A DNA stretch of 21,962 nucleotides from a virus. How positions within the stretch are numbered: position 1 is the stretch's first letter; every line of letters begins with the position of its first letter. The position numbers were made by a program, and so were the translations under genes. The notes below the pieces were generated by a model, which worked only from the letters and a program-made list of their open reading frames with translations, was not told the origin of the DNA and did no database searches. The stretch is taken from positions 1 through 21,962 of the IMG/VR virus record IMGVR_UViG_3300014720_001659. One strand, 5' to 3'. Positions 5,831-21,962 of the stretch are shown in pieces.

Positions 5831-6289
5831 ATGCGAAACCGCAACAAGATTCCCTCGAGGAAGACCACTATAAGGCGAGGCGGCCAGTCGATGGCCTCTG
5901 GGTTAGAGGCGTACTGCCACGACGCTCTCAGGCGTGCTGGCATTGCGTTCGGCTACGAATCCGAGGTCATCGAACTCTGCCCTGCTTTTGGCTTCAATGG
6001 AACCTATCTGAAATCTACCAAAGGCAAGACCGAGCTTGCGGACAGCACAGGGAAGAGAGTGTTGGCAATAACCTATAAGCCTGACTTCGTTAGCCATACG
6101 CACAGGTTTTATATCGAAACAAAGGGTTATGTCCCGAGTCAACACACCTTCCATCTTCGATGGAAACTGTTCCTGAGATGGCTGGTTGATAACGGCAGAG
6201 AGGACTACATGGTGTTTCTTCCCAAGAACAACAAGCAGGTTGATGCCTGTATACGAATAATTCAACAACGAATACGGAGTAATGAGTAG
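5831..6289 (+). CDS. PD-(D/E)XK nuclease (endonuclease I / resolvase-like)
   Basis: This encodes 152 residues; a shorter start at 5891 (MASGLEAYC) would drop a basic extension. The motif set fits a PD-(D/E)XK nuclease: Glu26 in SGLEAYCHDAL, Pro-Asp at 84-85 in YKPDFV, and Glu-x-Lys at 96-98 in YIETKGY. The order and spacing resemble phage T7 endonuclease I and related Holliday-junction or debranching nucleases. It lies just downstream of the primase-helicase, so a role in resolving replication or recombination intermediates is likely, though restriction-like cleavage cannot be excluded. It overlaps the next gene by 8 nt. Confidence 0.75.
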   Translation: MRNRNKIPSRKTTIRRGGQSMASGLEAYCHDALRRAGIAFGYESEVIELCPAFGFNGTYLKSTKGKTELADSTGKRVLAITYKPDFVSHTHRFYIETKGYVPSQHTFHLRWKLFLRWLVDNGREDYMVFLPKNNKQVDACIRIIQQRIRSNE

Positions 6290-6488
6290 AGCGGGACAAC
6301 AGTACAGTAGCACTACGCAGTGCATGCACGACCTCGTGACGGAGCTATACGAGAGTCTACACGACTCCACTGGCGCACCAATCACAAACGGCGTGGCAGT
6401 AGGCAGGGTTCTTGACGGCTTTCGGGCTTCAATGAACGCAGAATTATGGGGCATTATGGAGGCCGCTAAACAAGATGCTAATGACTGA
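6282..6488 (+). CDS. Hypothetical protein
   Basis: This encodes 68 residues. Its ATG overlaps the stop of the nuclease gene and its stop overlaps the start of the next nuclease gene, so it is embedded in a translationally coupled run. It is soluble, largely helical in appearance and slightly acidic overall, without motifs I recognise. The position between two nucleases suggests a nucleic-acid related accessory role, but that is only context. Confidence 0.5.
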   Translation: MSRAGQQYSSTTQCMHDLVTELYESLHDSTGAPITNGVAVGRVLDGFRASMNAELWGIMEAAKQDAND

Positions 6489-6960
6489 GGTAGAGATCAG
6501 TAAGGACATCGTCATGGCGGCAACCGAGCTGGCTATTGAGATGGGGCAGATACACAACAGCATAACCTCTGGGCAGGGCAATATCGCTGGCTTCATAGGG
6601 GAGTTAATTGCTGTCGAGTACTACGGTGGCTTAAGGCTTCCGACGAAGGACTACGACATCCTACTTGACGGTAAGCGTATCGATGTCAAGACCAAGAGGA
6701 CATCGGTCAAACCAAAACCCGAGTACATGTGTAGCATTGCGACCACGAGCCTGCATCAGGACTGCGATGAATACATTTTTGTCAGGGTTAAGAACGACAT
6801 GCGAAGAGCTTGGGTGCTGGGACGTATAAGTTCTCAGGACTTCTTCGAAAACGCCACGCTATTCAGAAAGGGCGACATCGAGGGGGGAAATAACTTCGTG
6901 GTGCTACAGGATTGCTATTCGATTAGCATATCAGACCTACAGAAATACAACAAGAAATAA
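6475..6960 (+). CDS. PD-(D/E)XK-type nuclease
   Basis: This encodes 161 residues from the ATG at 6475 (6481 also possible). The core fits the restriction-endonuclease-like fold: a helix with Glu43 in IAGFIGELIAVEYYGG, Asp61 in KDYDILLDGK, and Asp70-x-Lys72 in RIDVKTKRTS. This is the classical E...D...D/ExK arrangement. After it come strands such as CDEYIFVRVKNDMRRAWVLG (about 96-115). The order is the same as in the nuclease at 5831, but sequence similarity is low. Its substrate is unknown; branched DNA during replication, or host DNA, are both possible. Confidence 0.65.
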   Translation: MLMTEVEISKDIVMAATELAIEMGQIHNSITSGQGNIAGFIGELIAVEYYGGLRLPTKDYDILLDGKRIDVKTKRTSVKPKPEYMCSIATTSLHQDCDEYIFVRVKNDMRRAWVLGRISSQDFFENATLFRKGDIEGGNNFVVLQDCYSISISDLQKYNKK

Positions 6961-6970
6961 ACACACTACA

Positions 6971-7237
6971 ATGGCCATGAAAGAAAAAAGTCAAGACGAG
7001 GTTGGCGCAGCAGTTGATCCTCAGCACTACAAAACCTTTAGTGTGGAGGTTATCGAGATGATGAGACGCATATGGGGGTCTGAAGCGTTCATCATGCACT
7101 GCGAGATGACGGCATTCAAGTACAGGATGAGAGCCGGTAGAAAGCATGGACAGCTGGCTGAAGTAGACCTAGCTAAGGCCGCACAGTACGAGAGGTGGGC
7201 TACTGAAGAAAGACAGAAACAACCCTCAACCCTATAA
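6971..7237 (+). CDS. DUF3310-family (SaV-like) protein
   Basis: This encodes 88 residues. VDPQHYKTFSVEVIEMM (about 15-31) followed by EAFIMHCEMTAFKYRMRAGRK and LAKAAQYERW matches DUF3310: DPxHY, ...EvIe..., a helix ending in KYxxRxxxK, and a closing Lys/Ala-Tyr helix. The family is widespread in phages, including the SaV protein of lactococcal phages, where it is linked to sensitivity to an abortive-infection system. A nucleotide-related function is often assigned but not proven. Its place beside the replication genes is usual. Confidence 0.8.
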   Translation: MAMKEKSQDEVGAAVDPQHYKTFSVEVIEMMRRIWGSEAFIMHCEMTAFKYRMRAGRKHGQLAEVDLAKAAQYERWATEERQKQPSTL

Positions 7238-7253
7238 TTAAAACAGTAACCGC

Positions 7254-7610
7254 ATGACCGCAATACAACGAGTACAGCAAGCCATGGAGGCGATGATATC
7301 TGCCCGCGGCAATAGGCAAGCGTCAACAAAAGAACGCAACGAATATGCTAGGATGGAGAAGGTCTACAAGGTTTTAAGAATCTTATCTGAAGAACAGGTT
7401 ATTAGAGACTTTAAAAAGCAGCAAGACCGCGTCGCTAAGATAGAGGCTGATTTCGAAGAGTGGAAACGCAATACTCCATCAGAGGTAGTGCTTGGAGATC
7501 CTGCTAGAACCAAGGCTAAATACATGGCCATACACAGATACGAGTTTGCCACAACTGTTGATAGCAAACTTTGTTTTAAAACAAAAAATTATGGAAAGAA
7601 ATATAAGTGA
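7254..7610 (+). CDS. Coiled-coil hypothetical protein with possibly altered C-terminus
   Basis: This encodes 118 residues. Residues about 1-75 are highly charged and helical, probably a coiled coil, without recognised motifs. The base composition changes sharply near 7560: the last 15-20 residues (TVDSKLCFKTKNYGKKYK) are encoded by AT-rich sequence that belongs to the following array, and the last 20 nt overlap the start of the next gene. The original 3' end may have been replaced when the AT-rich segment arrived. This is an inference from composition. Confidence 0.5.
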   Translation: MTAIQRVQQAMEAMISARGNRQASTKERNEYARMEKVYKVLRILSEEQVIRDFKKQQDRVAKIEADFEEWKRNTPSEVVLGDPARTKAKYMAIHRYEFATTVDSKLCFKTKNYGKKYK

Positions 7611-7911
7611 AACACTCGAAAGATGGGTAATATTAAAACTACCAAATAACTACTATAAAGTCTTTGGAACTTGGTCTGGTGGTTATTTAGATGGTAATAG
7701 ATGGAAGTTGAACTCTGGAATAGAAAAAATTGAACAAGACGATGATTACTATTATTTTATTGGATTTAGTGGTAGTTGTTATAAGTGTCATAAAAAAGGA
7801 TATGGAACAGCAACATCTTATGGTTTAGGCGTTCTAAATAAAATAATAGAACAAGGAAACGGACAGATTGAACTGATGAAAGATAGTGATGATTGGTCAA
7901 ATGTGGTATAA
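7591..7911 (+). CDS. Hypothetical cassette-borne protein, YKVFGTWSGGYLDG type
   Basis: This encodes 106 residues from the ATG at 7591, preceded by A-rich AAAACAAAAAATT. It resembles Bacteroidota hypotheticals I recall with YKVFxTWxGGYLxGxxWKLNSGI...YFxGxSGSCYKCHK; here that spans about residues 20-67 and includes Cys-x-x-Cys in SCYKCHK. Aromatic residues and short strands suggest a compact beta fold. No signal peptide is visible. Codons are strongly AT-biased compared with genes before 7560 and after 8520, consistent with recent transfer. It ends SNVV-stop inside a repeated element. Confidence 0.65.
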   Translation: MERNISETLERWVILKLPNNYYKVFGTWSGGYLDGNRWKLNSGIEKIEQDDDYYYFIGFSGSCYKCHKKGYGTATSYGLGVLNKIIEQGNGQIELMKDSDDWSNVV

Positions 7912-7933
7912 CGGTTTGCAGATATACGCAGTT
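7900..7933 (+). repeat. Cassette-end element A
   Basis: AATGTGGTATAAC (7900-7912) contains the stop codon and matches 11-12 of 13 bases in the other two copies (8171, 8473). Downstream, AAC (7910-7912) and TGC (7917-7919) can pair with GCA GTT (7928-7933), leaving GGTT unpaired on the left arm. A short imperfect stem bounded by AAC and GTT with extrahelical bases is reminiscent of integron attC sites, although it is shorter and does not match the attC core consensus. Confidence 0.5.
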
Positions 7934-7954
7934 CTAACACAAAATTAAATAAAT

Positions 7955-8182
7955 ATGGAAAACTTAAATAATACAGACAAAAGTTCGGAAAACGCAGAAA
8001 AAGAATTGCGTATATCTGATGTTATACAACGTTTTATTCAAACTGAACGAGAACAATTAGAAGTGAGAAGAAAGTATTATCTAACTAAAAAGGGTGATTA
8101 TTCTTTTCACAACCTAAATTCAATACAAGGGCAGTTAGGTGTTTTGGATAGATTGGAGGGTGTTGTTAAAAATGTTGTATAA
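7955..8182 (+). CDS. Small hypothetical cassette-borne protein
   Basis: This encodes 75 residues. The ATG at 7955 follows AAAATTAAATAAAT. The sequence is acidic at the N-terminus, then helical (about 19-45) with many Glu and Arg, then YSFHNLNSIQGQLGVLDRLEGVV. No motif was recognised; it is probably cytoplasmic. It is AT-rich like its neighbours and ends KNVV-stop, the same C-terminal pattern as the preceding protein although the two are otherwise unrelated. Confidence 0.55.
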   Translation: MENLNNTDKSSENAEKELRISDVIQRFIQTEREQLEVRRKYYLTKKGDYSFHNLNSIQGQLGVLDRLEGVVKNVV

Positions 8183-8205
8183 CGTGCCGCAGCTAAACGA
8201 TAGTT
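8171..8205 (+). repeat. Cassette-end element B
   Basis: AATGTTGTATAAC (8171-8183) is the central copy of the shared gene-end motif, with the stop codon inside. It is followed by GTGCCGCAGCTAAACGATA and GTT at 8203-8205, so AAC and GTT again bound a short segment. GCTAAACGAT resembles GCTAACCCGAT after the copy at 671. Internal pairing is weak. Confidence 0.45.
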
Positions 8206-8229
8206 TTTTAAATGATTAATAACAACAAA

Positions 8230-8484
8230 ATGGAATTACAAACAGCAATTGAAATACTTGAGTACCATCAGAAATGGAGACTTGGTAAAAGAGAAGATAT
8301 GATTCACGAACCTAAAAAGCTAACAGAGGCTTTGGATATAATACTAAGCGAGGTTAAAAAATTTAGTTTAGGTGCTGTTATAGAATCGTTGCCCGAACAT
8401 GAATGTAAATATTGTGGCGTAATGACTACTCAGACAGACGAAGAATGTTATAAAGCACCGCCCACTTCGGGCAATGTTCTATAA
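8230..8484 (+). CDS. Phage-type small protein (AIEILEYHQKWRLG family)
   Basis: This encodes 84 residues from the ATG at 8230 (AATAACAACAAA leader); an in-frame ATG at 8212 would add six residues. The first 45 residues, with AIEILEYHQKWRLGKRE and LTEALDIILSEVKK, match a short helical domain I recall from many phages (AIEIL..HxxWRRG...P..L..AID..I). The C-terminal part carries Cys-x-x-Cys (ECKYCG, about residues 58-63) plus a third Cys near 73. It ends TSGNVL-stop, with the NV(V/L) ending seen in all three genes of this array. AT-rich coding. Confidence 0.6.
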   Translation: MELQTAIEILEYHQKWRLGKREDMIHEPKKLTEALDIILSEVKKFSLGAVIESLPEHECKYCGVMTTQTDEECYKAPPTSGNVL

Positions 8485-8521
8485 CTAGTGGCTAACCCCG
8501 CTTTCGTCAGGGTTATTCGTT
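8473..8521 (+). repeat. Cassette-end element C with hairpin
   Basis: AATGTTCTATAAC (8473-8485) is the third copy of the gene-end motif. It continues TAGTGGCTAACCC; the part from the TAA stop matches 671-687 in 16 of 17 bases. TAACCC (8493-8498) and GGGTTA (8510-8515) form a 6-bp stem with an 11-nt loop, and AAC (8483-8485) can pair with GTT (8519-8521) outside mismatches. The element lies between convergent genes and its GTT overlaps the stop of the minus-strand gene. It could also stop transcription, but it has no U-tract. Confidence 0.5.
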
Positions 8522-8957
8522 ACCTAGTAGCCACTACCCCCAAGGCTACACCAACAATAAACGCCACCGCCTTCATCCTATTTGAAGTGTTTCTACTCCT
8601 GCTGATGTGAGTATACGTTGACCTCAGTTCTTCCTCTAGTTTTGAGTTCCGTTCCTGAAGCATTACGCTTTGCTGTCTTTCGTTGTTTATCAAGTCCTCG
8701 TATTTAGAGGACTTTTCTTCGCAGTTCTGAGACATTGATTTATAGACGTCCAATTGCTGTCTGAGAATTGCGTTCTCGTGCTGCAACTGAATCCTGTGTA
8801 TGCCTTTGGCGATGAGGACTGCTTCTTTGTCTCGAGTCCAAAACACCCCGGTGTCTCCGTTAACAACTATGCGAAGCGGCTCACCTTGAGCTCTCGGCTC
8901 TCCAGAAGCTATCACGCTTAGCGTCGCTCCAATAACGAATGCCTTTATATTCTTCAT
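8520..8957 (-). CDS. Spanin-like protein: signal peptide, coiled coil, C-terminal TM
   Basis: This encodes 145 residues. Layout: signal peptide (about 1-23, MKNIKAFVIGATLSVIASG), a short beta segment, a long coiled coil (about 50-115), and a C-terminal hydrophobic helix (about 128-143, MKAVAFIVGVALGVVA). It lies at the end of the lysis genes and overlaps the preceding spanin-like gene by 77 nt, as Rz/Rz1 genes do. A unimolecular spanin has an N-terminal lipobox plus a C-terminal TM; here the C-terminal TM is present but I see no lipobox cysteine. I therefore call it spanin-like, probably disrupting the outer membrane at lysis. Confidence 0.6.
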   Translation of the reverse strand: MKNIKAFVIGATLSVIASGEPRAQGEPLRIVVNGDTGVFWTRDKEAVLIAKGIHRIQLQHENAILRQQLDVYKSMSQNCEEKSSKYEDLINNERQQSVMLQERNSKLEEELRSTYTHISRSRNTSNRMKAVAFIVGVALGVVATR

Positions 8958-9234
8958 TTGTTTCTTGTCTTGATGTCTGTATCTCTTTGTCTAGACTGTC
9001 TATAATGTCTTGCGACTGCCGTAACTCCCAGTTTAGGCTGTCTATTTGATGGCGTAGTTCTACGGACTTAAGCTGGTTCTGGTGGAGCTCTTGTTTGAGT
9101 TTCGTCGTGGCTTCGTTTAGCTTCCGCAATCTTCTAGTCGGATTCACAGACAGTGATGTAATGATGTCCGCAACAACGACAAAAACAACGACAGCTATTC
9201 CGATCTTTATTACCGTGTCTTTCATCGATGTCAT
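8881..9234 (-). CDS. Rz-like inner-membrane spanin candidate
   Basis: This encodes 117 residues from the ATG whose complement is 9232-9234. That start is preferred over the one at 9261 because it overlaps the amidase stop as ATGA. It has an N-terminal TM helix (about 8-24, IKIGIAVVVFVVVADII), then a periplasmic coiled coil to about residue 100, and a short C-terminal tail ending FWRAESSR. This is the N-in/C-out plan of i-spanins. Its 3' end overlaps the next gene by 77 nt. The assignment is by architecture and position; sequence identity to known Rz proteins is not evident. Confidence 0.6.
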   Translation of the reverse strand: MTSMKDTVIKIGIAVVVFVVVADIITSLSVNPTRRLRKLNEATTKLKQELHQNQLKSVELRHQIDSLNWELRQSQDIIDSLDKEIQTSRQETNEEYKGIRYWSDAKRDSFWRAESSR

Positions 9235-9734
9235 GCTCTGAATTTTATTTTCCTCAGCCACTGAGCAACATCAAACGCCGGACACAGCTTCAGCCATTCA
9301 TGCGGCTCAACGATGCCGTCGACATCGAGATCCGGAGAAAGATCCCTGTGGCCTAGCACAACCACTGATCCAAGCGACTCGGTCAGCGAGTACAGCAAGT
9401 CTTCAAGGGCTTCAAACTGATTAGCACTGAAATCGCTGACTCCAGCCCTGCCACCGATTAAGCAGATGTGGAGACTGTTTTTATTGTGGCCTTTGACTCC
9501 GTTTGTAACTACGTCTGGCGGATAGGTGTTAACCACGTTGCCATTGGATTCGATGACGTAGTGGTATCCACCGGTGTTCCACCCCAGCCCACCCTGCACA
9601 CCTTTGATATACGGGGCCTTGGCTCCTGTCTTGCGGTTGGCTTTCGGCGTCAGGTGATACGAGATAATGTCGTCAGCGGTTGCTGATGTCCGCGATGCCG
9701 AGCAGTGTATTACGATTTTATTTATTGCCCTCAT
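9231..9734 (-). CDS. N-acetylmuramoyl-L-alanine amidase (endolysin, Amidase_2)
   Basis: This encodes 167 residues with no signal peptide, consistent with a holin-released endolysin. The T7-lysozyme-type zinc ligands are visible: His10 in KIVIHCSAS, His129 in VVLGHRDLSPD and Cys151 in LKLCPAFDV. GGYHYVI (about 55-61) and HICLIGG (89-95) are the usual core strands. The reaction is cleavage of the bond between N-acetylmuramic acid and L-alanine of peptidoglycan. Between His129 and Cys151 sits DLDVDGIVEPHE (135-146), matching an EF-hand calcium loop with Asp at 1, 3 and 5, Gly at 6 and Glu at 12. It overlaps both neighbours by ATGA. Confidence 0.9.
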   Translation of the reverse strand: MRAINKIVIHCSASRTSATADDIISYHLTPKANRKTGAKAPYIKGVQGGLGWNTGGYHYVIESNGNVVNTYPPDVVTNGVKGHNKNSLHICLIGGRAGVSDFSANQFEALEDLLYSLTESLGSVVVLGHRDLSPDLDVDGIVEPHEWLKLCPAFDVAQWLRKIKFRA

Positions 9735-10141
9735 ACTTCGTCGGGTATTTGTTCTGGATCGGTGTCGTCTTCTTTGATATTGGCCCTCCTGAAGTGGAAG
9801 TGATTACCTTCGCCGTGGCCCGGAGTGAATTTCTGCCACACATTCACGCTCATGTACGCCGCTATTATTCCACCAGCCAATAGAAACAGATTGACCATCA
9901 CGGAATCAATTGCGTCTACGTGCTTATTGTATACCGACACCACTACCCCGGGGTCTACGTCGCTTGGCTCCGGCATGTAAGACAGAAAGTCCTCGATGTC
10001 TGGAATCATTTTGACATAGACAAAAGCCACGATCGTAGCCGCCGTTATAGATGCATATGCCATGACTAATTTGCGGCTCTCTGTGACGGCGTTATAGCTG
10101 TCTCTGATGTTATTCAGCATCGGCTTCTTTCTGTCTTTCAT
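9731..10141 (-). CDS. Holin candidate, two transmembrane segments
   Basis: This encodes 136 residues. Hydrophobic helices are at about 25-47 (KLVMAYASITAATIVAFVYVK) and 80-102 (SVMVNLFLLAGGIIAAYMSVNVW), joined by a long acidic loop and followed by a charged tail (KEDDTDPEQ). It lies directly before the endolysin gene with an ATGA overlap, and its start overlaps the end of the giant gene by 32 nt. Position and topology suggest a holin; the large loop is unusual, so a structural membrane protein remains possible. Confidence 0.55.
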   Translation of the reverse strand: MKDRKKPMLNNIRDSYNAVTESRKLVMAYASITAATIVAFVYVKMIPDIEDFLSYMPEPSDVDPGVVVSVYNKHVDAIDSVMVNLFLLAGGIIAAYMSVNVWQKFTPGHGEGNHFHFRRANIKEDDTDPEQIPDEV

Positions 10142-13100
10142 TTCTGATGTCCTCCATATACCATTGTAGATTCTCTGACCCTTGTTCTGACCTCATGTAA
10201 ACATACATACCGGCCATGTCTAAGAATAGCTGCTTGTCAGTGGGCGGCAGCTGTTCCGCAAAGTTAAGATATGCATAGGATCTGCTGTCTGCACTTTTAT
10301 CGAAGCCGTCGTATACCGCTCTGATTTCAGCGATGTACTTCCTGTAGTCGTCAGGGAACTGCTTCTTCAGTTCTTCTTCGGCGATCACTGATTTCCTGAT
10401 CTTCGTGAACTTGGATTTCATCTGCCCTGCCTTTGACGGATCCACACCCGTCAGGTGTTCGTGTATGGCTTCGAATCTGTTAACAGCACCTTCTAGTCCG
10501 TATTCTTTTATCGCTATTGCTGCTGGGTCGTTGGGACTCATTAACTGCTCCTCTACGAAAGCCTCTGTCATTGCTATGTAAGCCAAGTATTCTTCTTCGC
10601 TATTGAGTCTTCTGTCTCTGGGTTGATCGTCCATTTTTTTAACGAAGTACTCGATCTCCTTAATTGACAAACCGCCTGCTGCTGCGATGTTCATCAGCGA
10701 CTTCAGTAGGAACATGGATTTCATTTGTTCTCTGTCCTCGGGCCTGATGTAGTACTCTTTGCCAGATGTTGTCACCACGGTCTCGCCGTCACGCATCAGA
10801 TTGGACGTCGTGTTTATTATGTCGCTGATATACACTCCCTGCGGCCCTGCCATTTTAAGACCCCAGTGCAAAGTGCCCGCTTCTTCTTTGGACTTAAACA
10901 CAGGCAGGCCATTGCCTGCGGACTTCCATCTTTCGAATCCTTCCTTGATGTCTCCTTCTCTTCGCTGAGAGCTCCAGTCATCGGCATACATCGAGTAGTA
11001 GATTGCCTTGTTTATGGATTCGGTAACGAGGTCTTCTCCTGCGATAAACAATGGCACCGGCTGAGAGTCTAGTATAGCGCCCTTGATCACAGACCATTTC
11101 ATGCGGTTGAATTCCAAGTCTTTTCTAGGATCCTCTTCTTCGTCATCGAATCCAAGCGCAGATCTCATGACGTCAACAACAACGGGTATCAGCATGTACG
11201 AAACAGCTGCAAACGTCGTGGCTTCTATAGCGTTGCCGACGAATTCGAACGCTGCTTCCTTTTTAGCGGCTGCGTCTCCTTTGACGAGCTTCATCGCAGA
11301 ATACGAAATACTCCTTTTCTTGTTGAGGGCGAACCTCGAATACGGCCACACCACGGCTGATAACACAGACGCAATTGTGGACATCACGCCCTTTGCTCCT
11401 CCAGTATACAAATCAACGGCTTCCCTTGGCGTAGATGCTGCTTGGTCTTTGCTTACTATTTGGTCGGCATACGACACGGCATCCATGTCTGGATTGCGCG
11501 ACTCTTCCATCCAGTTGATCTCCGAGAACGACGACACCCTTCCTGTTGTTATGAGGTAGTCGCCATAAAATGTGAACCACGAAGCCAATGCGGCAAGCTT
11601 ATCGGTGCCCTTGAGGTTCTTCAGCGAGAACTCCGCTACCTTGCCGACAAACTGTGAGGCCACGCTTTCCCTAGCAGATATCGATCCGTTGTATGGGTTG
11701 ATCTGTCCTTTCTCGTAGTCCCGCATAAACACTGGCGACCTCCTCAGCAAATCGTATCTGCCGTCGTTCATCAGCGCTATTTTCATGTCGTCTTTACCCG
11801 CCCACAAACCAGTCTTAGTCGCTGCGGCACCGAGCTCAAACATCATCCTAGCAAGAAACATTGCTGATTCCGATTTGTTCTTTGTGTTGAGCAATACAGA
11901 CGTTAATACAGTTGACTGCTTGAGCGTTTGAGTCACGAGAGATCCAAACGCTTTCACTGCTGCCACGGTTCTCAGGTATGACAGCGGGTTTGGAATTCGC
12001 TTGCCGTTGATAGTCAGGTCGGTTCTCATTATGGCCGGCACTTCCTTTCTGTGACCTCCGGCATAAGCCACCATCTTGCGAGCCAACTCAGAACGCACGG
12101 CATCATCAGGTATGAGTTGCTGAATCTCTTCTGAATTAAACATCCGGGCCGCATAGATAAGCGGTCTAATTGTGTGGGCTAGCGTCGTGTTCTCTCGAAG
12201 GGTCTCTTCGTTGATCTTAAGGAAGTCCAAGCCGATGAGGTTTTGCGTTCCTCGAAGGCTGTTGCGGTTCCTGCTGTATGATGCGCCGGCTGTTTTCTTG
12301 GCCTGATTCAGTGACGACGCCAACACGGTTTCCATCGCCGCCGCCATGAGATCTGCTTCTGCGTTTATTGAACTGCTTCCGGTTTTCTGAATAACAGAGA
12401 ACGGCGTGTAGTTGGGTTCGTATTCCAAGGACTTACCTAGGAATCTCTCTACATATTCCGAAAACATCACGAAGTTCTCTGGGGAGTTATGTAGGTTAGC
12501 CATGAAGTCAACGAACTCCACGATGTCTGGGAAATCGTTGTCTACGTCGGCAATAAGATCGTCTAGTCCGGGCTTAGAGAACAGGTAGTCAAACGCCGAC
12601 TCCAGTTCTTTTATCTCTTTATTGGTGTATCTGCCCTGCTTCTTGAGGTCGGCTATGCTGCGCTCCGCAGCTTTTCTGATGTCGTTAAACCATTCCGCCT
12701 TAGACTCTGATTCGCTTATGCCGTCGCGTTGGTGGTGTTGCCTCATCATGGAGTAGATCTGAGCAATCATCCTCGACTCCATGCTCTCCACATCGCCTTT
12801 GCGGCCGTTGTAATCACTGCTGCGGATCTCGTCCATTTTCTCCGTGATCCTTCTTACGTTGTCTGCGTGAGCACTGTCAGCAAGCGCATAACCCGACACC
12901 ATGCCCGTGATGCCAAGCGTGGTTCTGAGTCTCGCCAATTTATCCTTGGTTATCCCCGGGAATACCAACCTAAAGAAGCTCTCCATGCTGTCAAATAGCG
13001 CCGTGCCAGACAACAGCTTTGAAGACCTACCCATAAGTCCTGACTTCACGAGTTCTGCGATCTTCTGTTGACCGTCGAGTTTCGCCGATAGCGCCGCCTC

Positions 13101-16100
13101 TAACTGACCCAAGCCGTACTTGTTGCCGTTGTCAACGAAGTCCCTCATGCGGAACTCCAGCTGAAGCAATTCTTTCATGGATAGCTTAGACAATCTGTTC
13201 ACTAGTTCTCGCTTCTTGATCTGCGGCACTGGGCCGGAGTCGTCTATAGCGTCTCCAAGTATCGAAACAAACTCGCTTTGATCTGCGAACGTCTGAGCGT
13301 TTTGCTCGAGTAGTTCGCCGATGGCCTGCTCAATAACAGCCTCTTTCCTCAGGCCCATTTCGTCAGCCCTTTGCTGAGCCAATATGTCATAGAAGTACTC
13401 GAGATCCTGCCAGTTCGAAAGAGACCGCTGATCACTGGGATTGATGGCGTTATGAGCTTCGACGAGTTCATTTAGCTTCTTGCGGGTAGCCGGTATGAGT
13501 TTGTCTTGTTCAGCCTTCAAGATGGCGTCGTATTCATCGGAAACCCTTTGGGTTATCTGTGAGGCTATGCCGTCTTTGAACACGTCTCTATCGGTCTCTC
13601 CCTTTGCCTTAGGACGTGGTGGCGTCCACCCCTGAGCAACGGCTTTGTTGTATTCCTCGTTAGCCCATGTGTTGGCTCGCTTCTCTGCGAGGTGCCTACG
13701 GTACACGTCCCTGAATGTTTCTTCAACAGCGGAGAACCTATCGGCGATAGACTGCAACTGCTCAGCAGTGATGCCCACAGCGTTTGGCACGACAGCGATG
13801 ACATCGCCGTTATCATCCTTGATGGTCTTGGTGTTGGAGGCCGCCGCTAAAAGTTCTGCTGCGGTGTCTATGAACTCCTGCACATCAGGCAAAAACACTG
13901 GGTCTATTTTAGAGAGATCAGCAGCCACCTGTCTGAAAGACTCTCTGCTGTCCCCGGGCTTTCTCTCCTTCTTGGCGATAGCGGACAGCTTCTTCTGTAA
14001 TGACTTAGCGGTCTTCACCTGCTTTTCAAAAGCGTCCATCTCCGCCTTGGCGTCTTGGGCATCAAAGATCTTCGACAGCCTGTTGACGAAAGTCTCCACT
14101 ACGGCGTAACCGTTGGTTCTTACGTTTTCTGCGCTGACCTTTGTTGTGGCCTGTACGATTTCGAAAAGCTTTGTGATCTGTGCCGGCGTGAACGGAGGGT
14201 TGCCTCGGTCTGCCATGCGTTGATTCACTAGCTCAATAGCCGCTAGCAAGAACTCGTTAGTACTCCACGCCTTCATGCGGATATTACTGAGTTCTTGCTT
14301 GGTGTCTTTACTCAGACTCTCAAGATCAGCGTACTTATCAAGCAGACCCATGAGTTCCGCTCTGAGACTGATGGCTTCTCTTGATCTGAGATCAAGCCAC
14401 TTACCCATGGTTGCCTTAGCGAAGTCATAGGCTTCTTTCTTCCCTGCCCGATTTCCCGATAGGAACACCTTGGCTCTTTTGTATGTGATCTCGGCTTCGG
14501 CCTTGCTGAGTCCAAGGTGCTCTGTGAGCAATCTCATTATGTCTGGCTTCGCCATCCCTGCTTTAACATACCCTAAAGCCTTGGCATCCACCAGTATGGT
14601 CTTACCTTTAACCGTTACGGTTCTCAGTTGTGGCGTGGTTCCGTAGCGGTTAATGAGTTCGGCTACATACGCATCTAAGTCATCCTGAGCTTTACCAGAC
14701 TTTCTTAGTGAATTGCTTCTAAGGTCTTGTTTAGCGCCTTTTAATTTCTCTGCACTTGGCTCAACACCCTTGGCTATGTCTTCTATTACTTTTTTCGACC
14801 TTTGGAACGCAGTAGTGCTACTTGCTTCGCCAAGCTCAACAGCTCGCTTTCTTTGAGATTCTCTAGCGGATTTTGCGCTTCTCCTGATGGTTGAGGTTGC
14901 ATCATTGATTTGTTGTTCTTGTACTCCATATTTTTTGGCTATTTTTTTTGCTGCTGATTCGTAATCTGGTTGCTCTGAATCCGATGTTTCTTCTCGCCCT
15001 GACTCAATAGACATGTCGGGTCTGAATGTTTGATAAAGTGCTTTCTCAGGATACCAATTCACGGCTTGAAGGTCGGCTATACTTATGTCTATACCGGCTT
15101 CCTCTCTGAGTACTTCTTGAACCCTGTCAAACACAGACACGATAAACAACCGTTGCCTCGGCCCTGTTGGGGCTTCTACTTCTCCTTTGGCGTTTTTTGA
15201 TAAATTGTTCCCAGCTTTTCTGACGTTGTTCAGTCTGTCGGTGCTGGACAATTTTGATCTTTTGTCGAGCCTTGCCGTAGCTTTTTCTATAGAGCCAGCC
15301 ACAGCAACAACATCTGACATGTTTACGCTTCCTATAACCGAAGAAAGTATTCGTCTTTCCTCCTTGTCTAATGACCTTACGGCCTGCCTTAAATCCTCTT
15401 TGTTTTTAGATATAAGATCCTTGCGCCTATCAATTAAGGTTCCCGTCAATCTCCCGTACTGTCTCATGAACCACCTATCCATTGTCAATTGATCGAAGTT
15501 CCCATAAAGATTCATGAAAAATCCGTTACCTATTTTCGGCCCAAATACAGCCGCCCCAAACACTATTTCATCAGCTCCAAGGCCGTTTATAAGTGCCTTC
15601 TTTTTACCGTTGTCGTCGATGTAATACAGATCTCCGGCTCTCATTGGTGTCGTCAAAAACTCCGCAAACTCAGACATGGTTAAGTACTCAAGGACTTTAT
15701 TCGCAAATGCAAACGTACTGTCTATAGCCGCCCTTTGACTACCAGCATTTCCAACAGCAGAGAACCTTCCGCTTTCTTTAAACGCCTTATACTGCTTCTC
15801 TGCCTCTTCAAAGTTTTTATCTACTTTATTGCCGTTGGAAGTAACCGCAAGAGATATTTTAAACGCTGCCTCAGCTTCTTTGTCTGTCTTTATCTCTGGA
15901 TGAATGAGAGCCATTATCCCCATAGCTGCCTTTGTCTTTTCGTCATACCAGCCAAGAGCTTCTGGGTACGCTGATACAGCTAATAGAGTTTCGTAAACAT
16001 AGGCATCAACAAGATATCTGAATAGATTTTCATCCATCACATCTCCGCTCTTTACCTTGTACTTCTTTTTTATTAAAGGCAAGTGCTTTTTAAATCTTTC

Positions 16101-19100
16101 TTGAAGAAGTTCTTTGAATTCCAAGTTTGTCTTTATCGACGACTGAGATGCTGTCTCCAGCGCTGAGGATATCGACACTGGACTGTCTTTCACTTCGAGC
16201 GGTATCTCGTCTATAAACTGTGCCTTGCCAACTTGAAAAACAACTATCTGCTCTTCTCTAGCTACATCTTCTGTTTCTTGAAGCGTCTTCGCTTGGCGTT
16301 CTTCAGTGGACATCTTGGCTCTCTCTTGAGCGTTGCGTGCCTCGGCCTCTCCTGCGAGTCTCTTATAGGTTTCGAACTTTTCTTCTTGCGACAACTCTCT
16401 TCTGTCGTTGACGATTGTAGTTGGATCTCCGCCGATGGCAAACCCTTCGATCTGCTGAACGGCGTGTTGGATCTCGTGTATCATCCCGGACAATGCCGTC
16501 GCCTTGTCTTTGGCAAACATCTGAATATAAATCGGAGTGCCGTCGCCAGCCACCGACAACGCACCCTGAACACCGTCAATGCCGCCTATGTATAAATCCA
16601 CTGGCATGCGCTTCAATTTCGGGTACAGCCTAAACAGTTCGTCAAATCTAACAAGATCCTCTAAAGCACCTTCATGAACATCGGCAAGGTTGCCGTTGGT
16701 TAGTTCGATGATTGGGGGGCTGAGCCTGAGGTTTAGCCTAGCCTTGGGCTCGATCTCGTATCTCCACTTGTTGTCAACACCACGTTCCCATCCAGTAGCC
16801 ATCCTGATGTCTCTCGGAAGGCTCCCTGACTTCTCCATGTCTCTAGCAACAGCAAGATTATCCCTGACGCTCTGAGATAGGTAAGCGTTCTCTCCGATGA
16901 TTTGCATCTTGCCCAGTCTTCCTTTGTCGAGTCCTGAGGTGGTGTCACTAAGCGGTCTCCCGTCTAGCATCTTGAATTCCTTTGGATCGAACGGCCCCCA
17001 GTCAGTGGTGCCGTGCAGAACGCCTTCGCCACCGCTTAGCTGCGGTATCGCAAGCTGCTTGGTATCCGCAAGTAACTTGTCCATCTCGGCGTCACTAAGC
17101 TTCCTGCTCAGCTGAATGGATACAGTGGGTTCAGTGCCCTGCACTTCGTTAGCTGATATCACCTCAACGTCTTGTGGAAACTGACTTAGTACCTCTTGGA
17201 CGGGGATCTTCCTGTCGGTCTTTTCTTCGAGCAGTCCGATATTCAAGAAGTTTCCATCTGGAGCACCCGGGATAGATAATGGATCTGTCCGCTTTTTCGA
17301 TGGGGGTGACTTTGACTCATTCAACTCAAACGATTCGCTGTAGTCGTCCATGACCTCAGCCACGGCATCCAACATAGAGGATTCAACAGATCTTACCCCA
17401 TCAAGGATGGCCACAACTATGCGCTGCCATATGCTTTCCTGCGCCTTACCTGTGGTTTGGTAAGCAATAGAGGACAGCCATTTGCCAAATTCCGGAGAAG
17501 TCAGAGCGTAGGTAATGAGTTCTTGATGGCTGCCGTCTACCACGAACTTATACAGAGACGCAACGGCTTCACTCATCTCCAGCGCTGCTCCTGACTCAAC
17601 TGCGGCTATCAGGTCTTCTCTTATCTTCGAAACCCGCTCCGCCAGTCTTGGATCGTTGACTTCGGCCTTGTGCAGCATGCCGTGAATGATCTCGTGAGCC
17701 ACGTTTCTGTCGATGTTCTGAAACTCTTCTTTCCTGTTGGTGTTTATTGCGATGACGTTTGTGGCGGGGTAGTATAGCGCCGCTCCCTCACTTGGGCGCA
17801 GACCAGAAAACCTAATCCTCCCGAGGCCGTTGGCTTTCCACCAAGAGTAAAGTGGCCCGTACAACTGATCGTTGACATCGCTAACCACTTCGGATATGTC
17901 TGCGGTTTCGCCCTTGCTGAACCTCAGTTCTCCTTCCGGGGTCAGGGCAGCGGGTAACTGCGCCTTGCCTTTGGCTCCTTCTGTAGCCGCCCATTCAGGA
18001 AGCAATCCTAACTTCTGTTCAGCGAACTTCATGACCTCGTACACCTTGCCAACCAACTCATTGGCCTCCTCTGTCTTTCCTTCTTCTCTCAGTCTTCTAG
18101 CCTGATCCCTGATCGCAAAGGCCTCGTCATTAATGCCTGAGAAATTCACCCATGAATTCTGTCCGCGGGTTTCTGTAGTCATCGCTCTACGGGCTTTCGG
18201 CGTGAACATAGCGGCGTGAACTCGCCATGCATTCTCTTCGCCGATAGCGCCAAAGCTGTTTCCTAATTTTGCGTGACCAAAGAAGTCGTGTACAAACCTG
18301 AAGACATCATTCACCAGTAACGGTACGCCGTTGACATCGGTGTATTGCGTCCTACGAAGTCTAGGGTCTTCGGCTCTCTGCTCCTCGGTGATGGGTTCGT
18401 CTCCAAACCCAGACTCGGTAGAGAAGATCTTCATTCGCTTGTTGTTGCGAAGGTCTTCTATCATGTCGCCACTTGAACTGTACGGCTCGGTATTGTTAAC
18501 CTCGACTACATATCCTTCGGCAATGATGGTTTCGTACTGCGCTAGTGTTTCCTCTGCCATGAGCTCGTAAGCCTCGATGACTTCGGGATCCGTCGGCGAA
18601 TGCTTCATGGCGTCGAACTCATCGGATATCCGCTTCGCTCTGTCTTTGTCTATTGTCCGGATTCTTTCGGGCTTTTCGTAGCCTTCGATGCCTCTGTCTT
18701 TAACATATCGCTCCGCAATTCTCGTAGCGTCCTCCAAAGGCTCGCTGAAGAGTTTGTTTCCTGCGACTGGCTGAGCTTTTCCTGATTTGTCATTTGCTTG
18801 TCTTCTTGTTGATTGCTTGTCTACTAATTGCTTTTCTGCGGTGGTGTCTACGGCCTCGCCTTTTGACATCTTCCCTGTCACCGAGTTAATGGCGGCTACC
18901 ACGTCTCTTGTCTTTGGTGTGCCAACCCCTGACGGAAACAACCGCTGAGACACCATTTCCTTGAGCCTTCCAGCCAAAGAAGTACGAGCCTCTAAACTAA
19001 CAGCACCGGTTTCGATAGTGGCCTTGAGTTCCGTAAGAAACTCATCGGCCACTTCTGGGTCTGCGGCAACCATTGCCGCAACGTCATTGGTGTCGATCTT

Positions 19101-21962
19101 CGATAACTCCGCCTTGCGCTCTGGATTAGCAGCTGCCATAACGGCTTGAAAGTTTCTTCTGACAAAAGACGTTAAGTCAGCCTTTGTGTCTTTGTCCATG
19201 TTGGCCTTGGCGAGCGTCTCTGCGAGTGCTGTTGAAGCACTGCCGCCCATCTGAGAAAACTCGGCTTCGTGATAGGCCTCGTGATAAGCGGTGTTTTCCT
19301 TGAGTAGCGGAGCATACAGGTGTATCTCTCTCACGGATCCATCGGCGTCTTTCCTTGTCCAAAACCCTCTTGAGACAGTTCCTGCGGGGTTGTCGTCTGT
19401 TTTTGTTGCGGCTTTCATTGACTCAGCGGTGCCGTGCATAACGACCTTGACTCCCGGAGAACTCTGGGCCAAAGACTTGACGGCAGCCACCACGTTTCGC
19501 AGCCCCTTCGTGGTTTGCTCCACGGTGTTGGCCACGTTCGATCTAAGCCTTCCCGAGGAAATAATGCCGCCGATAACCGCCTCCACGTTGTCAACGCTCA
19601 ACTCAACCGACGTCTGACCTGCGGTTATCTCTCCGTATTCAGCGAAATCCGCATCCACAGAAGCCACTTCTTTCATGACTCTTATCTCGTCTTCGTCTAG
19701 AGTGGAGTTGTCAAACCCCGCAACCTTAGAAGCGTATCGTGACTCTATGGCTCTTTTCCTGTTGATCTCTGTTTCCACAACGGCAGCGGCTTCCGCCAAC
19801 GCCTGATCCTTCTCCTCTTTAGTCAGTGTGGTATTCGCTCTTATAGCCTGAGCAGTGATCCTCTGGTTTCTAATTTCTCTGTTGGCTGCGACGATTTCTT
19901 TGACCTCGTCTTCAGTCATGGACTCGTACAGTGTGGCATCCTTGAGCGCCAGTCTATTATGGGCTTCGGACAGCAACGCAAGCTCCTTCTTGATCTCTGA
20001 CCTCCTAGCGTCAGTAGTAGCTGTTTCTAACTCAGCTAATAGACGAGCCTCTTCACTTCTTATCACCGCCCTTTCTTTGGCTGTGAAAACCGAGAATGCC
20101 ACACCAGCTCCTCTTGCCGCTAAATACATCGATCCTCCAGCGCCGGCACCAACTACAAAGCTATCAACTATTTCGCCGGTCTTAATGACCTTCATCGATC
20201 CTAGTTCAACCTCAGCAGATCCGATCCTCCGCCTTAGTTGCCCTTGTAGTTCTGGGTCTGTTGTGGATTGAAGTTCTGTCTTGAGGTCTTCGATCTCCCG
20301 GGACAGTGACGTCGATGACTGAGTGTAGTCCGCAATCTGTGCAAAGAAAGAAACCAAGGCCTCTTCTCCGCCTTCGCCTCCTAACGATTTAAACAAGCCC
20401 TTGACAAAGCCATCCTTCCCAGCTTCTTTAACCGCCTTATCTACGAATGCATCCCTGACATAATTGAATCCGGCTTTCTCCGCAAACCTCGCATACGGGA
20501 GAAACTCCGCACCTACCTCTATGGCGCCGTTAGCGAAGGCGTACAAGCTTTTCTCAGCCGTGGTCAGGTACTGGTCTTCCCTGACGCCACCGTATGCAGA
20601 TCCTGCCGATTGTATAAAGCCAGTGGTTCCACTCATTGCCAACCCTACCCCGGGGTTAACCATGGTAATCACGGCATCGATGGCGATTTGTGGCAGTGCG
20701 TTAGTGATGTCTACAGCGGCTTTTGCGGCGGCTATGTCTGCCTTACCTTCGGAGATGAGTTCAGTGTATGTCTTGGTTCTGTCCTCTGCGGATACGCCGG
20801 CTTCAGAAAGCTGCTGATCAACCAGCCCTCTAGACTTCTCTTCTAGCCTTGCGGCCTCAGACCTCCATACATCTCCAGCGAGTTGTACGGATCCCGGAAG
20901 CAGCCCTACGCCAAGAATGTCATACGTCCACGCTTGAAAATTAGCGGCACCCGAACCCATTTGCAACACCACGTAGTTGTATAGCTTCTCCGAAATAGAG
21001 TTGTGTTCCTGAGCGAATCTCCTGCCTTCCGCGTATTCCGAGGACAGATAAGAATCTGTCGCGTCCTGTGCTGATTTGTATTGCTTAGCCTTTAACCCCT
21101 CTCTGACCACCTCTTCCAAGGAGTTGAGTTGAGCTGATCCGGTTTTGTAGGCTACTTCGTTGTAATACCTAATGATCTCTCCGCTCTCTATGTATTGCTT
21201 CAGCTGTTCTTTGGCCGTCTCGTCTCCTTGTGCGGCATTGTTAAGAGTAGTGAAAACATCATCAAGAGCAGCGGATAACCCCGGGTCTTTGAACGCAGAA
21301 ACAGCCGGCTCTGCAACTGCCGTTGGCAGACTCTCAACAACAGACACGAGTTCATCGATGGTTTTCTCAGGGAAGTCAGACTGAAGCTGTGCCGCCACAA
21401 TACCAACGTCTTCCTTAGCCACTGAGTCCAAGCCTCTCTGCTTCAGAACCTCTAATACGTCTCTTTGCAGATCTCCGGCTTCTTTAACCGGTGCCAACGC
21501 CTTTGTCTTCTGCTGCTCAGCAATTTCTGACTCAGCAATAACAACAGCGCTATCGCTTTTGTTCACGGGCTTTCCTGACTTGATGGATTGCTTAGCCTCG
21601 TCTACGCGGTACTTCGCCACTGGCATTGCCGCGGCCGCGGCGTTTTGTGAGCGCATCGCACTGAATGCGTTGAACTCTTCTTCGGATACCTGACCAAAAG
21701 CGGCGGCTGCCGAATACTGTCGGTCGTCTCCATAAATTTTATAGAGCTCTTCGTATCTGTCAGGACTTAGTTCTGCTGTACCCGAATCTCCACTCGGTAT
21801 GCGCTGACCCTGATTGACACCCGAGGTAGACGCCACTGAAGTCTGCGCTGATTGACGCTCCGAGGCGGAGGCTCCAATCGACTGATCTTTTTTTTTTAAA
21901 CCAACAGCAACTTCGTAGTCTTCTAGGCTTCCGCTAAACCCACTGGATGACGCATTGCGATA
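10110..21962 (-). CDS. Giant polyvalent phage protein, 5' end outside the window
   Basis: The frame is open to the right edge, giving at least 3,950 residues. A GTG lies at 21836, but open frame continues upstream, so the true start is not visible. In protein order: hydrophobic stretches (about 20715-20580 and 20165-20090), coiled coil, zincin 1 with HEAYH (19283-19269), a conserved phage domain with VHDFFGHA (about 18293-18270) and TETRGQNSWVN (about 18180-18145), zincin 2 with HEIIH (17696-17682), a WERG..NKWRYEI segment with zincin 3 HEIQH (16478-16464), an AT-rich module with GWYDEK and ADLQAVNWYPEK, long helical regions, and a C-terminal hydrophobic region (about 11230-11150). This matches phage polyvalent proteins, thought to be packed in the virion and injected to act early in infection. 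Five GKAQ tetrapeptides separate modules. The 3' end overlaps the holin candidate. Confidence 0.85.
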   Translation of the reverse strand, partial: YRNASSSGFSGSLEDYEVAVGLKKKDQSIGASASERQSAQTSVASTSGVNQGQRIPSGDSGTAELSPDRYEELYKIYGDDRQYSAAAAFGQVSEEEFNAFSAMRSQNAAAAAMPVAKYRVDEAKQSIKSGKPVNKSDSAVVIAESEIAEQQKTKALAPVKEAGDLQRDVLEVLKQRGLDSVAKEDVGIVAAQLQSDFPEKTIDELVSVVESLPTAVAEPAVSAFKDPGLSAALDDVFTTLNNAAQGDETAKEQLKQYIESGEIIRYYNEVAYKTGSAQLNSLEEVVREGLKAKQYKSAQDATDSYLSSEYAEGRRFAQEHNSISEKLYNYVVLQMGSGAANFQAWTYDILGVGLLPGSVQLAGDVWRSEAARLEEKSRGLVDQQLSEAGVSAEDRTKTYTELISEGKADIAAAKAAVDITNALPQIAIDAVITMVNPGVGLAMSGTTGFIQSAGSAYGGVREDQYLTTAEKSLYAFANGAIEVGAEFLPYARFAEKAGFNYVRDAFVDKAVKEAGKDGFVKGLFKSLGGEGGEEALVSFFAQIADYTQSSTSLSREIEDLKTELQSTTDPELQGQLRRRIGSAEVELGSMKVIKTGEIVDSFVVGAGAGGSMYLAARGAGVAFSVFTAKERAVIRSEEARLLAELETATTDARRSEIKKELALLSEAHNRLALKDATLYESMTEDEVKEIVAANREIRNQRITAQAIRANTTLTKEEKDQALAEAAAVVETEINRKRAIESRYASKVAGFDNSTLDEDEIRVMKEVASVDADFAEYGEITAGQTSVELSVDNVEAVIGGIISSGRLRSNVANTVEQTTKGLRNVVAAVKSLAQSSPGVKVVMHGTAESMKAATKTDDNPAGTVSRGFWTRKDADGSVREIHLYAPLLKENTAYHEAYHEAEFSQMGGSASTALAETLAKANMDKDTKADLTSFVRRNFQAVMAAANPERKAELSKIDTNDVAAMVAADPEVADEFLTELKATIETGAVSLEARTSLAGRLKEMVSQRLFPSGVGTPKTRDVVAAINSVTGKMSKGEAVDTTAEKQLVDKQSTRRQANDKSGKAQPVAGNKLFSEPLEDATRIAERYVKDRGIEGYEKPERIRTIDKDRAKRISDEFDAMKHSPTDPEVIEAYELMAEETLAQYETIIAEGYVVEVNNTEPYSSSGDMIEDLRNNKRMKIFSTESGFGDEPITEEQRAEDPRLRRTQYTDVNGVPLLVNDVFRFVHDFFGHAKLGNSFGAIGEENAWRVHAAMFTPKARRAMTTETRGQNSWVNFSGINDEAFAIRDQARRLREEGKTEEANELVGKVYEVMKFAEQKLGLLPEWAATEGAKGKAQLPAALTPEGELRFSKGETADISEVVSDVNDQLYGPLYSWWKANGLGRIRFSGLRPSEGAALYYPATNVIAINTNRKEEFQNIDRNVAHEIIHGMLHKAEVNDPRLAERVSKIREDLIAAVESGAALEMSEAVASLYKFVVDGSHQELITYALTSPEFGKWLSSIAYQTTGKAQESIWQRIVVAILDGVRSVESSMLDAVAEVMDDYSESFELNESKSPPSKKRTDPLSIPGAPDGNFLNIGLLEEKTDRKIPVQEVLSQFPQDVEVISANEVQGTEPTVSIQLSRKLSDAEMDKLLADTKQLAIPQLSGGEGVLHGTTDWGPFDPKEFKMLDGRPLSDTTSGLDKGRLGKMQIIGENAYLSQSVRDNLAVARDMEKSGSLPRDIRMATGWERGVDNKWRYEIEPKARLNLRLSPPIIELTNGNLADVHEGALEDLVRFDELFRLYPKLKRMPVDLYIGGIDGVQGALSVAGDGTPIYIQMFAKDKATALSGMIHEIQHAVQQIEGFAIGGDPTTIVNDRRELSQEEKFETYKRLAGEAEARNAQERAKMSTEERQAKTLQETEDVAREEQIVVFQVGKAQFIDEIPLEVKDSPVSISSALETASQSSIKTNLEFKELLQERFKKHLPLIKKKYKVKSGDVMDENLFRYLVDAYVYETLLAVSAYPEALGWYDEKTKAAMGIMALIHPEIKTDKEAEAAFKISLAVTSNGNKVDKNFEEAEKQYKAFKESGRFSAVGNAGSQRAAIDSTFAFANKVLEYLTMSEFAEFLTTPMRAGDLYYIDDNGKKKALINGLGADEIVFGAAVFGPKIGNGFFMNLYGNFDQLTMDRWFMRQYGRLTGTLIDRRKDLISKNKEDLRQAVRSLDKEERRILSSVIGSVNMSDVVAVAGSIEKATARLDKRSKLSSTDRLNNVRKAGNNLSKNAKGEVEAPTGPRQRLFIVSVFDRVQEVLREEAGIDISIADLQAVNWYPEKALYQTFRPDMSIESGREETSDSEQPDYESAAKKIAKKYGVQEQQINDATSTIRRSAKSARESQRKRAVELGEASSTTAFQRSKKVIEDIAKGVEPSAEKLKGAKQDLRSNSLRKSGKAQDDLDAYVAELINRYGTTPQLRTVTVKGKTILVDAKALGYVKAGMAKPDIMRLLTEHLGLSKAEAEITYKRAKVFLSGNRAGKKEAYDFAKATMGKWLDLRSREAISLRAELMGLLDKYADLESLSKDTKQELSNIRMKAWSTNEFLLAAIELVNQRMADRGNPPFTPAQITKLFEIVQATTKVSAENVRTNGYAVVETFVNRLSKIFDAQDAKAEMDAFEKQVKTAKSLQKKLSAIAKKERKPGDSRESFRQVAADLSKIDPVFLPDVQEFIDTAAELLAAASNTKTIKDDNGDVIAVVPNAVGITAEQLQSIADRFSAVEETFRDVYRRHLAEKRANTWANEEYNKAVAQGWTPPRPKAKGETDRDVFKDGIASQITQRVSDEYDAILKAEQDKLIPATRKKLNELVEAHNAINPSDQRSLSNWQDLEYFYDILAQQRADEMGLRKEAVIEQAIGELLEQNAQTFADQSEFVSILGDAIDDSGPVPQIKKRELVNRLSKLSMKELLQLEFRMRDFVDNGNKYGLGQLEAALSAKLDGQQKIAELVKSGLMGRSSKLLSGTALFDSMESFFRLVFPGITKDKLARLRTTLGITGMVSGYALADSAHADNVRRITEKMDEIRSSDYNGRKGDVESMESRMIAQIYSMMRQHHQRDGISESESKAEWFNDIRKAAERSIADLKKQGRYTNKEIKELESAFDYLFSKPGLDDLIADVDNDFPDIVEFVDFMANLHNSPENFVMFSEYVERFLGKSLEYEPNYTPFSVIQKTGSSSINAEADLMAAAMETVLASSLNQAKKTAGASYSRNRNSLRGTQNLIGLDFLKINEETLRENTTLAHTIRPLIYAARMFNSEEIQQLIPDDAVRSELARKMVAYAGGHRKEVPAIMRTDLTINGKRIPNPLSYLRTVAAVKAFGSLVTQTLKQSTVLTSVLLNTKNKSESAMFLARMMFELGAAATKTGLWAGKDDMKIALMNDGRYDLLRRSPVFMRDYEKGQINPYNGSISARESVASQFVGKVAEFSLKNLKGTDKLAALASWFTFYGDYLITTGRVSSFSEINWMEESRNPDMDAVSYADQIVSKDQAASTPREAVDLYTGGAKGVMSTIASVLSAVVWPYSRFALNKKRSISYSAMKLVKGDAAAKKEAAFEFVGNAIEATTFAAVSYMLIPVVVDVMRSALGFDDEEEDPRKDLEFNRMKWSVIKGAILDSQPVPLFIAGEDLVTESINKAIYYSMYADDWSSQRREGDIKEGFERWKSAGNGLPVFKSKEEAGTLHWGLKMAGPQGVYISDIINTTSNLMRDGETVVTTSGKEYYIRPEDREQMKSMFLLKSLMNIAAAGGLSIKEIEYFVKKMDDQPRDRRLNSEEEYLAYIAMTEAFVEEQLMSPNDPAAIAIKEYGLEGAVNRFEAIHEHLTGVDPSKAGQMKSKFTKIRKSVIAEEELKKQFPDDYRKYIAEIRAVYDGFDKSADSRSYAYLNFAEQLPPTDKQLFLDMAGMYVYMRSEQGSENLQWYMEDIRNERQKEADAE
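14685..16229 (-). other. AT-rich module within the giant gene
   Basis: The DNA between the fourth and fifth GKAQ codons is clearly richer in A and T and in AAA, TTT and ATA codons than the sequence on either side (compare 16020-16140 with 16440-16600). It encodes about 511 residues including GWYDEKTKAAMGIMALIHPE, ITSNG-like LAVTSNGNKVDKNFEEA, GAAVFGPKIGNGFFMNLYGN and ADLQAVNWYPEKALY. I recall these patterns from other phage polyvalent proteins, but cannot assign an activity. The sharp edges suggest module exchange. Confidence 0.6.
14685..18782 (-). repeat. Five GKAQ tetrapeptides at module borders of the giant protein
   Basis: GKAQ is encoded at 18782-18771, 17969-17958, 17450-17439, 16229-16218 and 14696-14685 (minus strand). 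The context is KSGKAQ in the first and last copies, and KGKAQ, TGKAQ and VGKAQ in the others. Codons differ between copies (for example GGA AAA GCT CAG against GGC AAG GCG CAG), so the likeness is at protein level rather than a DNA repeat. Each copy lies between recognisable domains: zincin 1, the VHDFFGHA domain, zincin 2, zincin 3, the AT-rich module and the helical C-terminal half. A variant, SGKPV, occurs near 21567-21578. Confidence 0.7.
21888..21897 (-). repeat. A10 homopolymer in the giant gene
   Basis: Ten T on the plus strand, so the coding strand reads TTTAAAAAAAAAAGATC and encodes Leu-Lys-Lys-Lys-Asp in a low-complexity linker. The frame stays open on both sides as given. Runs of this length are prone to polymerase slippage and to sequencing length errors. 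Confidence 0.7.

Follow-up and report, generated by a model that had tools for sequence, protein, structure and literature searches.

The sites of the head-maturation proteases of T4, phiKZ and SPN3US consist of two fixed positions around a free one, end in Glu and occur in several head proteins; ejected internal proteins are processed as well. For the polyvalent proteins, giant multidomain phage proteins with a zincin, LPD23 and other cargo, it was proposed in 2017 that the zincins release the domains, and the shortening of P1 DdrB before packaging was cited in favour (Iyer et al., PMC5512222). The passages of that paper considered here name neither a cut site nor a border motif. Here we analyse a window of 21,962 bases (the whole of IMG/VR virus record IMGVR_UViG_3300014720_001659) with a single giant open reading frame (ORF), in which the tetrapeptide GKAQ occurs five times. 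In this giant protein and its relatives a border motif, K-x-Q, brackets exchangeable modules, is selected at the peptide level and is largely confined to the giant protein; this tag, together with a layout of constant cores and variable cargo, distinguishes the family from the polyvalent proteins as described in those passages. DdrB of the P1 darA operon resembles it by description alone, as a polyvalent protein with a zincin that is reported to be shortened before packaging, and differs in that a single shortening event and no repeated border tag are known from the same passages. The crAss001 proteins gp47, gp49 and gp50 are likewise very large and carried by podoviruses with a crAss muzzle; they are RNA-polymerase-associated, their cleavage is unmentioned in PMC10172136, and the likeness is one of size and carriage.

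The ORF covers 3,950 residues and is open at the contig end, where about a dozen N-terminal residues are missing, as the homologue L029 with its complete start (MDEELK...) suggests. As the first-pass annotation had claimed, it contains GKAQ exactly five times, all inside 14685-18782 and with differing synonymous codons: the copies start at aa (amino acid) 1061, 1332, 1505, 1912 and 2423 in the numbering of the 5'-open frame, have five different codon strings, and the peptide is encoded nowhere else in the window. The piece lengths of 271, 173, 407 and 511 residues between copies were also correct, as was the AT-richness of the unit before the last copy (42.4% guanine plus cytosine (GC) versus 50-52% in the rest of the gene). 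The chance expectation, put at well below one, is 0.08 with independent residues or 0.16 under a first-order Markov model, giving P values for at least five copies of 2.7e-8 and 7e-7. Correction for 160,000 tetrapeptides raises these to 0.004 and 0.12, and some tetrapeptide reaches five or more copies in 1.4% of residue-shuffled to 6% of Markov-shuffled versions of the ORF. The count by itself is therefore insufficient for a claim; it is suggestive, not decisive, and the relatives decide. The features of the window protein, all on the minus strand, are as follows.

10110..21962, minus strand: ORF of the giant polyvalent protein, at least 3,950 aa, 5' end beyond the contig
18783..21962, minus strand: constant N-terminal core with zincin 1 (aa 1-1060), homologous in all family members
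19269..19283, minus strand: HExxH of zincin 1 (HEAYH, aa 894-898), in 16 of 16 family members, in invariant columns
18771..18782, minus strand: GKAQ 1, border between the N-terminal core and the VHDFFGHA module, K and Q invariant in 15 members, disordered in the models
17970..18770, minus strand: VHDFFGHA cargo module (aa 1065-1331), phrog_3170, well modelled
17958..17969, minus strand: GKAQ 2, border between the VHDFFGHA module and zincin 2, at the breakpoint cluster of aa 1329, disordered in the model
17295..17957, minus strand: zincin 2 cargo module, HEIIH at 17682-17696, missing in the nearest relative (L006)
17439..17450, minus strand: GKAQ 3, in the zincin 2 unit or close to its end, unconfirmed as a border
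16230..17294, minus strand: LPD23/zincin 3 cargo block, LPD23 at 16746-16874, HEIQH at 16464-16478
16218..16229, minus strand: GKAQ 4, border between the LPD23 block and the AT-rich module, at the same position in L006, where the shared block ends
14697..16217, minus strand: AT-rich cargo module (507 aa), with relatives in ctQRb9, ctEw122, DC33 and L054
14685..14696, minus strand: GKAQ 5, border between the AT-rich module and the C-terminal core, with fixed K and Q in 15 members, at the breakpoint cluster of aa 2424
10110..14684, minus strand: constant C-terminal helical core, found in 33 loci

The nearest relative, L006 (IMGVR_UViG_3300031758_004788), has three GKAQ copies, and three blocks align between the two proteins by BLASTP. 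The N-terminal core (43% identity) ends at GKAQ in both, the LPD23/zincin 3 block (67-79%) extends from just past the first GKAQ of L006 to its second, and the C-terminal core (57%) begins at the last GKAQ in both. The cargo between these blocks differs: in the window it comprises the VHDFFGHA module, zincin 2 and the AT-rich module, in L006 other modules including DUF7178, and the copy matching GKAQ 4 is followed in L006 by a module unrelated to the AT-rich one. This comparison indicates that exchange of modules at GKAQ is real. Independently mapped homology breakpoints of the window protein cluster at aa 1061, 1329, 1923 and 2424, that is at four of the five copies; the claim that GKAQ separates the units thus stands for these four and not for the third (aa 1505), which falls at no cluster.

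Further relatives were found by scanning with a narrow conserved block of the C-terminal core, which gave 33 loci (31 with new locus identifiers, among them L056, a contig already known as L029) on contigs of up to 71 kb; long queries or wide two-sequence alignments recovered L006 alone, and the pattern YHEAYHE gave true matches in two of 12 contigs. A 41-row alignment (A8) whose N-terminal core rows were misplaced was left out of the analysis. No relative of the constant cores was found among the isolated phages of the phage collection or the bacterial genomes searched. The further family giants have some 3,300 residues and carry KAQ rather than GKAQ at their borders. At 61 border sites in 14 proteins, hand-chosen from alignments, the middle residue of K-x-Q is A in 46, S in six, P, Q and F in two each, and D, L and K in one each; G or A follows in 37. 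KFQ stands at two borders of L061 and L062, which have no KAQ, and KQQ at two borders of L056. As far as the aligned proteins tell, the homologues do keep a motif at their borders, but its conserved unit is K-x-Q, mostly KAQ, and only the window and L006 have a G ahead of the K at every site. The 46 KAQ sites have ten different codon strings that roughly follow general codon usage; since the codons do so and the middle residue varies, selection acts on the peptide.

We then compared the positions of short peptides with homology breakpoints mapped in eleven giants of the family plus seven other phage giants. Breakpoints lie within 15 residues of KAQ in 26% of cases; the figure is 2.8% for positions taken at random, and no control tripeptide exceeds 5.4%. 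When 2,961 patterns, both tripeptides and gapped ones, were ranked near clustered breakpoints with none favoured beforehand, KAQ came first and K.Q second, and 23 of the 42 KAQ copies fell within 4.5% of the residues (nominal P 2.5e-20); the family members are related and P values of this kind are optimistic, therefore we take the rank and not the P value as the result. When the region from zincin 1 to border 1 was aligned for 15 members without anchoring on the motif, 19 columns were invariant; among them are the three HExxH residues, the EFLxEL motif and, amid variable flanking residues, both K and Q at border 1. At the last border, displayed by anchoring on the motif, K and Q have zero entropy in 15 members while most neighbours have 0.7 to 3.3 bits. 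The check for a motif at domain borders of homologues thus came out in favour: K and Q are kept there while their surroundings change, with GKAQ 3 as the exception among the five copies of the window. Border peptides are also more alike within one protein than after shuffling within border class (P 0.002 for the middle and 0.0005 for the preceding residue, some of the proteins being related).

These results bear on two simpler explanations. Chance repetition of a tetrapeptide in a long protein would be compatible with the corrected P values for this protein alone, but in relatives the same borders have a fixed K and Q, and near breakpoints the motif tops the ranking; as an account of the motif chance is hardly credible and for the family it is refuted, while GKAQ 3 taken alone may be such a coincidence. 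The main alternative offered by the first-pass annotation was a linker used in domain shuffling. Shuffling at the motif does seem real, but it forms no clean rival, being part of the same story. In its pure form, with KAQ as functionless inherited baggage at exchange joints, the explanation draws on the coincidence of breakpoints with the motif and on an identical 12-base string shared by two L006 copies of GKAQ. It is quite unlikely all the same: K and Q persist while their flanks diverge at borders of unchanged module pairs, the middle residue changes in concert within one protein, and the codon strings vary widely, so DNA identity is not what is kept.

Structure prediction with AlphaFold2 was applied to aa 700-1120 and 1040-1581 of the window protein. 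In the first model GKAQ 1 falls in a stretch with a predicted local distance difference test (pLDDT) value below 50. In the second the VHDFFGHA module is folded (pLDDT about 85-98, model residues 30 to 290); its two flanks, which contain GKAQ 1 (model residues 22-25) and GKAQ 2 (model residues 293-296), have low confidence. In these models GKAQ 1 and 2 are thus predicted to lie in disordered linkers beside a folded module, so the check for exposed linkers came out in favour for these two copies; the region of GKAQ 3 is poorly modelled, at low confidence. For neither model did Foldseek return a significant match.

KAQ was also counted in six long contigs: the giants have 25 copies against 5.7 expected, and all other proteins together have 14 against 14.0 expected. 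A peptide so distributed could be a docking or ejection signal, K-x-Q in exposed linkers being bound rather than cut, for example by a partner in packaging, unfolding or the tail channel. This would account for the peptide-level conservation, the position in linkers and the restriction to the giant. On the other side, a tag of three residues whose middle position is free is what one would rather expect of a protease site, and docking needs no zincin, yet zincin 1 is universal in the family. Large cargo proteins of crAss001 reside in the head and the tail and are considered to leave the particle, and so to cross the tail, in a partly unfolded state (PMC10172136), which fits docking; overall we regard docking as unlikely.

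Cutting in trans, with a host protease or a different phage protease in the place of zincin 1, has a precedent in the short motifs with a free middle position that phage head proteases use (SPN3US, T4). Motifs of head proteases, however, occur in several head proteins, whereas K-x-Q is confined to one protein and KAQ outside the giant stands at chance level; moreover, no S78 prohead protease (PF04586) was found in 13 contigs, many of them fragmentary and not searched exhaustively for other protease families. Processing in trans is distinctly improbable. As a separate observation, RRKAQLN occurs at residue 44 of the protein whose gene lies just upstream of that of the giant, in G014 (11781-13661) as well as in G015 (41824-43566); this is perhaps another site, close to the N-terminus of a second protein that is ejected. 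A K-x-Q-A string in the C-terminal core, SKDQAASTPR (window about aa 3505-3520), is conserved in all members; because its flanks are conserved too it is probably structural, and it could be a further site.

For the enzyme, if there is one in the chain, one candidate is the likeliest. The HExxH of the N-terminal core lies 160 to 178 residues ahead of border 1, is the sole HExxH in all family members examined except the window and L006, and is followed by the EFLxEL motif in all members, so a protease-like sequence stands in the same chain as the borders. In a model of moderate confidence it sits on a helix. The best fold match is weak, to aa 2127-2363 of the N4 virion RNA polymerase gp50 (Z 4.4), of which aa 2130-2448 have been placed in the zincin superfamily in the passages of PMC5512222 considered; lethal factor entries match weakly as well (Z 4.4 and below). 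The suggestion had been that one of the protein's own zincins cuts it. Zincins 2 and 3 are cargo missing from most relatives, and therefore, on the distribution seen, zincin 1 alone is eligible as an enzyme common to the family, the other two being unsuited.

With these elements the borders can be read as follows. Constant N- and C-terminal cores frame variable cargo modules, with small-K-x-Q (GKAQ here) at nearly every border. Zincin 1 would cut the polyprotein ahead of packaging, inside the head or once it has been ejected into the host, and cutting at the borders would free the cargo modules. Candidate scissile bonds are Q|G/A, or a bond before Lys as with zincins that select the P1' residue. 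Modules would be swapped exactly at the borders because a border must stay exposed. We infer that the K-x-Q borders are, with some reserve, probably proteolytic processing sites, as had been supposed for GKAQ: the border motif, the peptide-level selection and the disordered linkers at copies 1 and 2 agree with this, and copy 3, off the mapped borders, does not. That zincin 1 is the processing enzyme we put forward tentatively. Besides the relatedness of the proteins, several observations weigh against such processing. GKAQ 3 lies some 50 aa ahead of the nearest breakpoint (1557), with no mapped border at its position; some family borders lack the A, and L064 has RFQ; and cutting at Q|x would show no selectivity at P1', since P, K, D, E and F are among the residues that follow Q. 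According to the same passages of PMC5512222, the N4 virion RNA polymerase, whose zincin region is the weak best fold match of zincin 1, is packaged uncut.

More distant giants that have the VHDFFGHA module in common (L088-L092, L095, L130, L154) form a second set, and their border peptides are lineage-specific and repeated: IKAQK in L088 and L089 (three times in the latter), KKQK in L090 and L091 ([LF]KKQK/FKKHK four times in L090) and IKFQK in L130 and L154 (twice each). Of the breakpoints, 33% are no more than 15 residues away from [KR]x[QH]K, versus 3% at random, and most of these giants have one HExxH upstream. It is possible, if doubtful, that giant polyvalent proteins are polyproteins with a lineage-specific cleavage code (GKAQ, KAQ, KFQ, KKQK, IKAQK), in which the core zincin would free any cargo placed between K-x-Q peptides and enzyme and sites would co-evolve.

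As to the modules themselves, the window protein joins LPD23 (Pfam PF18838, E 5e-12, above cut-off), three HExxH units and the VHDFFGHA module, unrelated domains of the polyvalent set, in one very large phage protein. The zincin 2 module has a weak match to Peptidase_M78, below cut-off, and Pfam matches such as Chitin_synth_1, TMP_2 and DUF5344, also below cut-off, were disregarded. Another candidate tag, the RFS/LFS strings next to borders 1 and 2, was rejected, as these strings do not recur in relatives. In L054 an ADP-ribosyltransferase-like module stands between two K-x-Q borders, with ART-PolyVal just below the Pfam cut-off. The VHDFFGHA module is found in other polyvalent proteins too, and phage ct7L0027 matches over exactly aa 1065-1331, between two GKAQs; the proteins of ct7L0027, ctQRb9, ctEw122 and DC33 that share cargo modules all lack GKAQ. 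The module is widespread in viral contigs (at least 580 of 600 stretches confirmed), has no significant match in the PDB and matches unnamed families throughout; its H-D-x-x-G-H motif resembles a catalytic or metal-binding motif. Limnohabitans phage DC33 (PQ492659.1, L011) is filed under Inoviridae despite a 39-kb genome and a 3,125-aa polyvalent protein, a taxonomy that looks wrong.

Genes for a terminase, a P22-like portal and a crAss muzzle protein are present on the family contig G015; muzzle and portal match PF25731, PF25729 and PF16510 above cut-off, as in Crassvirales or a sister group, and the window itself lacks that region. Because of these three genes the evidence points to crAss-related podoviruses, whose hosts would be Bacteroidota. 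The giant gene adjoins virion genes in relatives and a related giant of phage H66 is annotated as detected in virions by mass spectrometry, both indirect signs; the giant protein is probably carried in the virion of such a podovirus. G015 (71.5 kb, L077-L080) apparently has two sets of tail and head genes, with two terminase-like ORFs (8609-10720, 65320-67437) and two portal-like ORFs (6106-8556, 62893-65271); it may be chimeric, derived from two phages, or consist of two genomes joined together.

Searches of the open-access literature yielded no paper that describes a border motif in proteins of this kind; the motif, its lineage-specific forms and the layout of constant cores and variable cargo appear new, whereas zincin processing is the known proposal of 2017. 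That proposal has stood since then without known cut sites, and the border motif supplies concrete, mutable sites and predicted fragment ends. If the reading of K-x-Q borders as processing sites is true, it would provide a sequence rule for dividing many giant phage proteins into functional units, and phages would have in it a modular way to exchange early-infection effectors.

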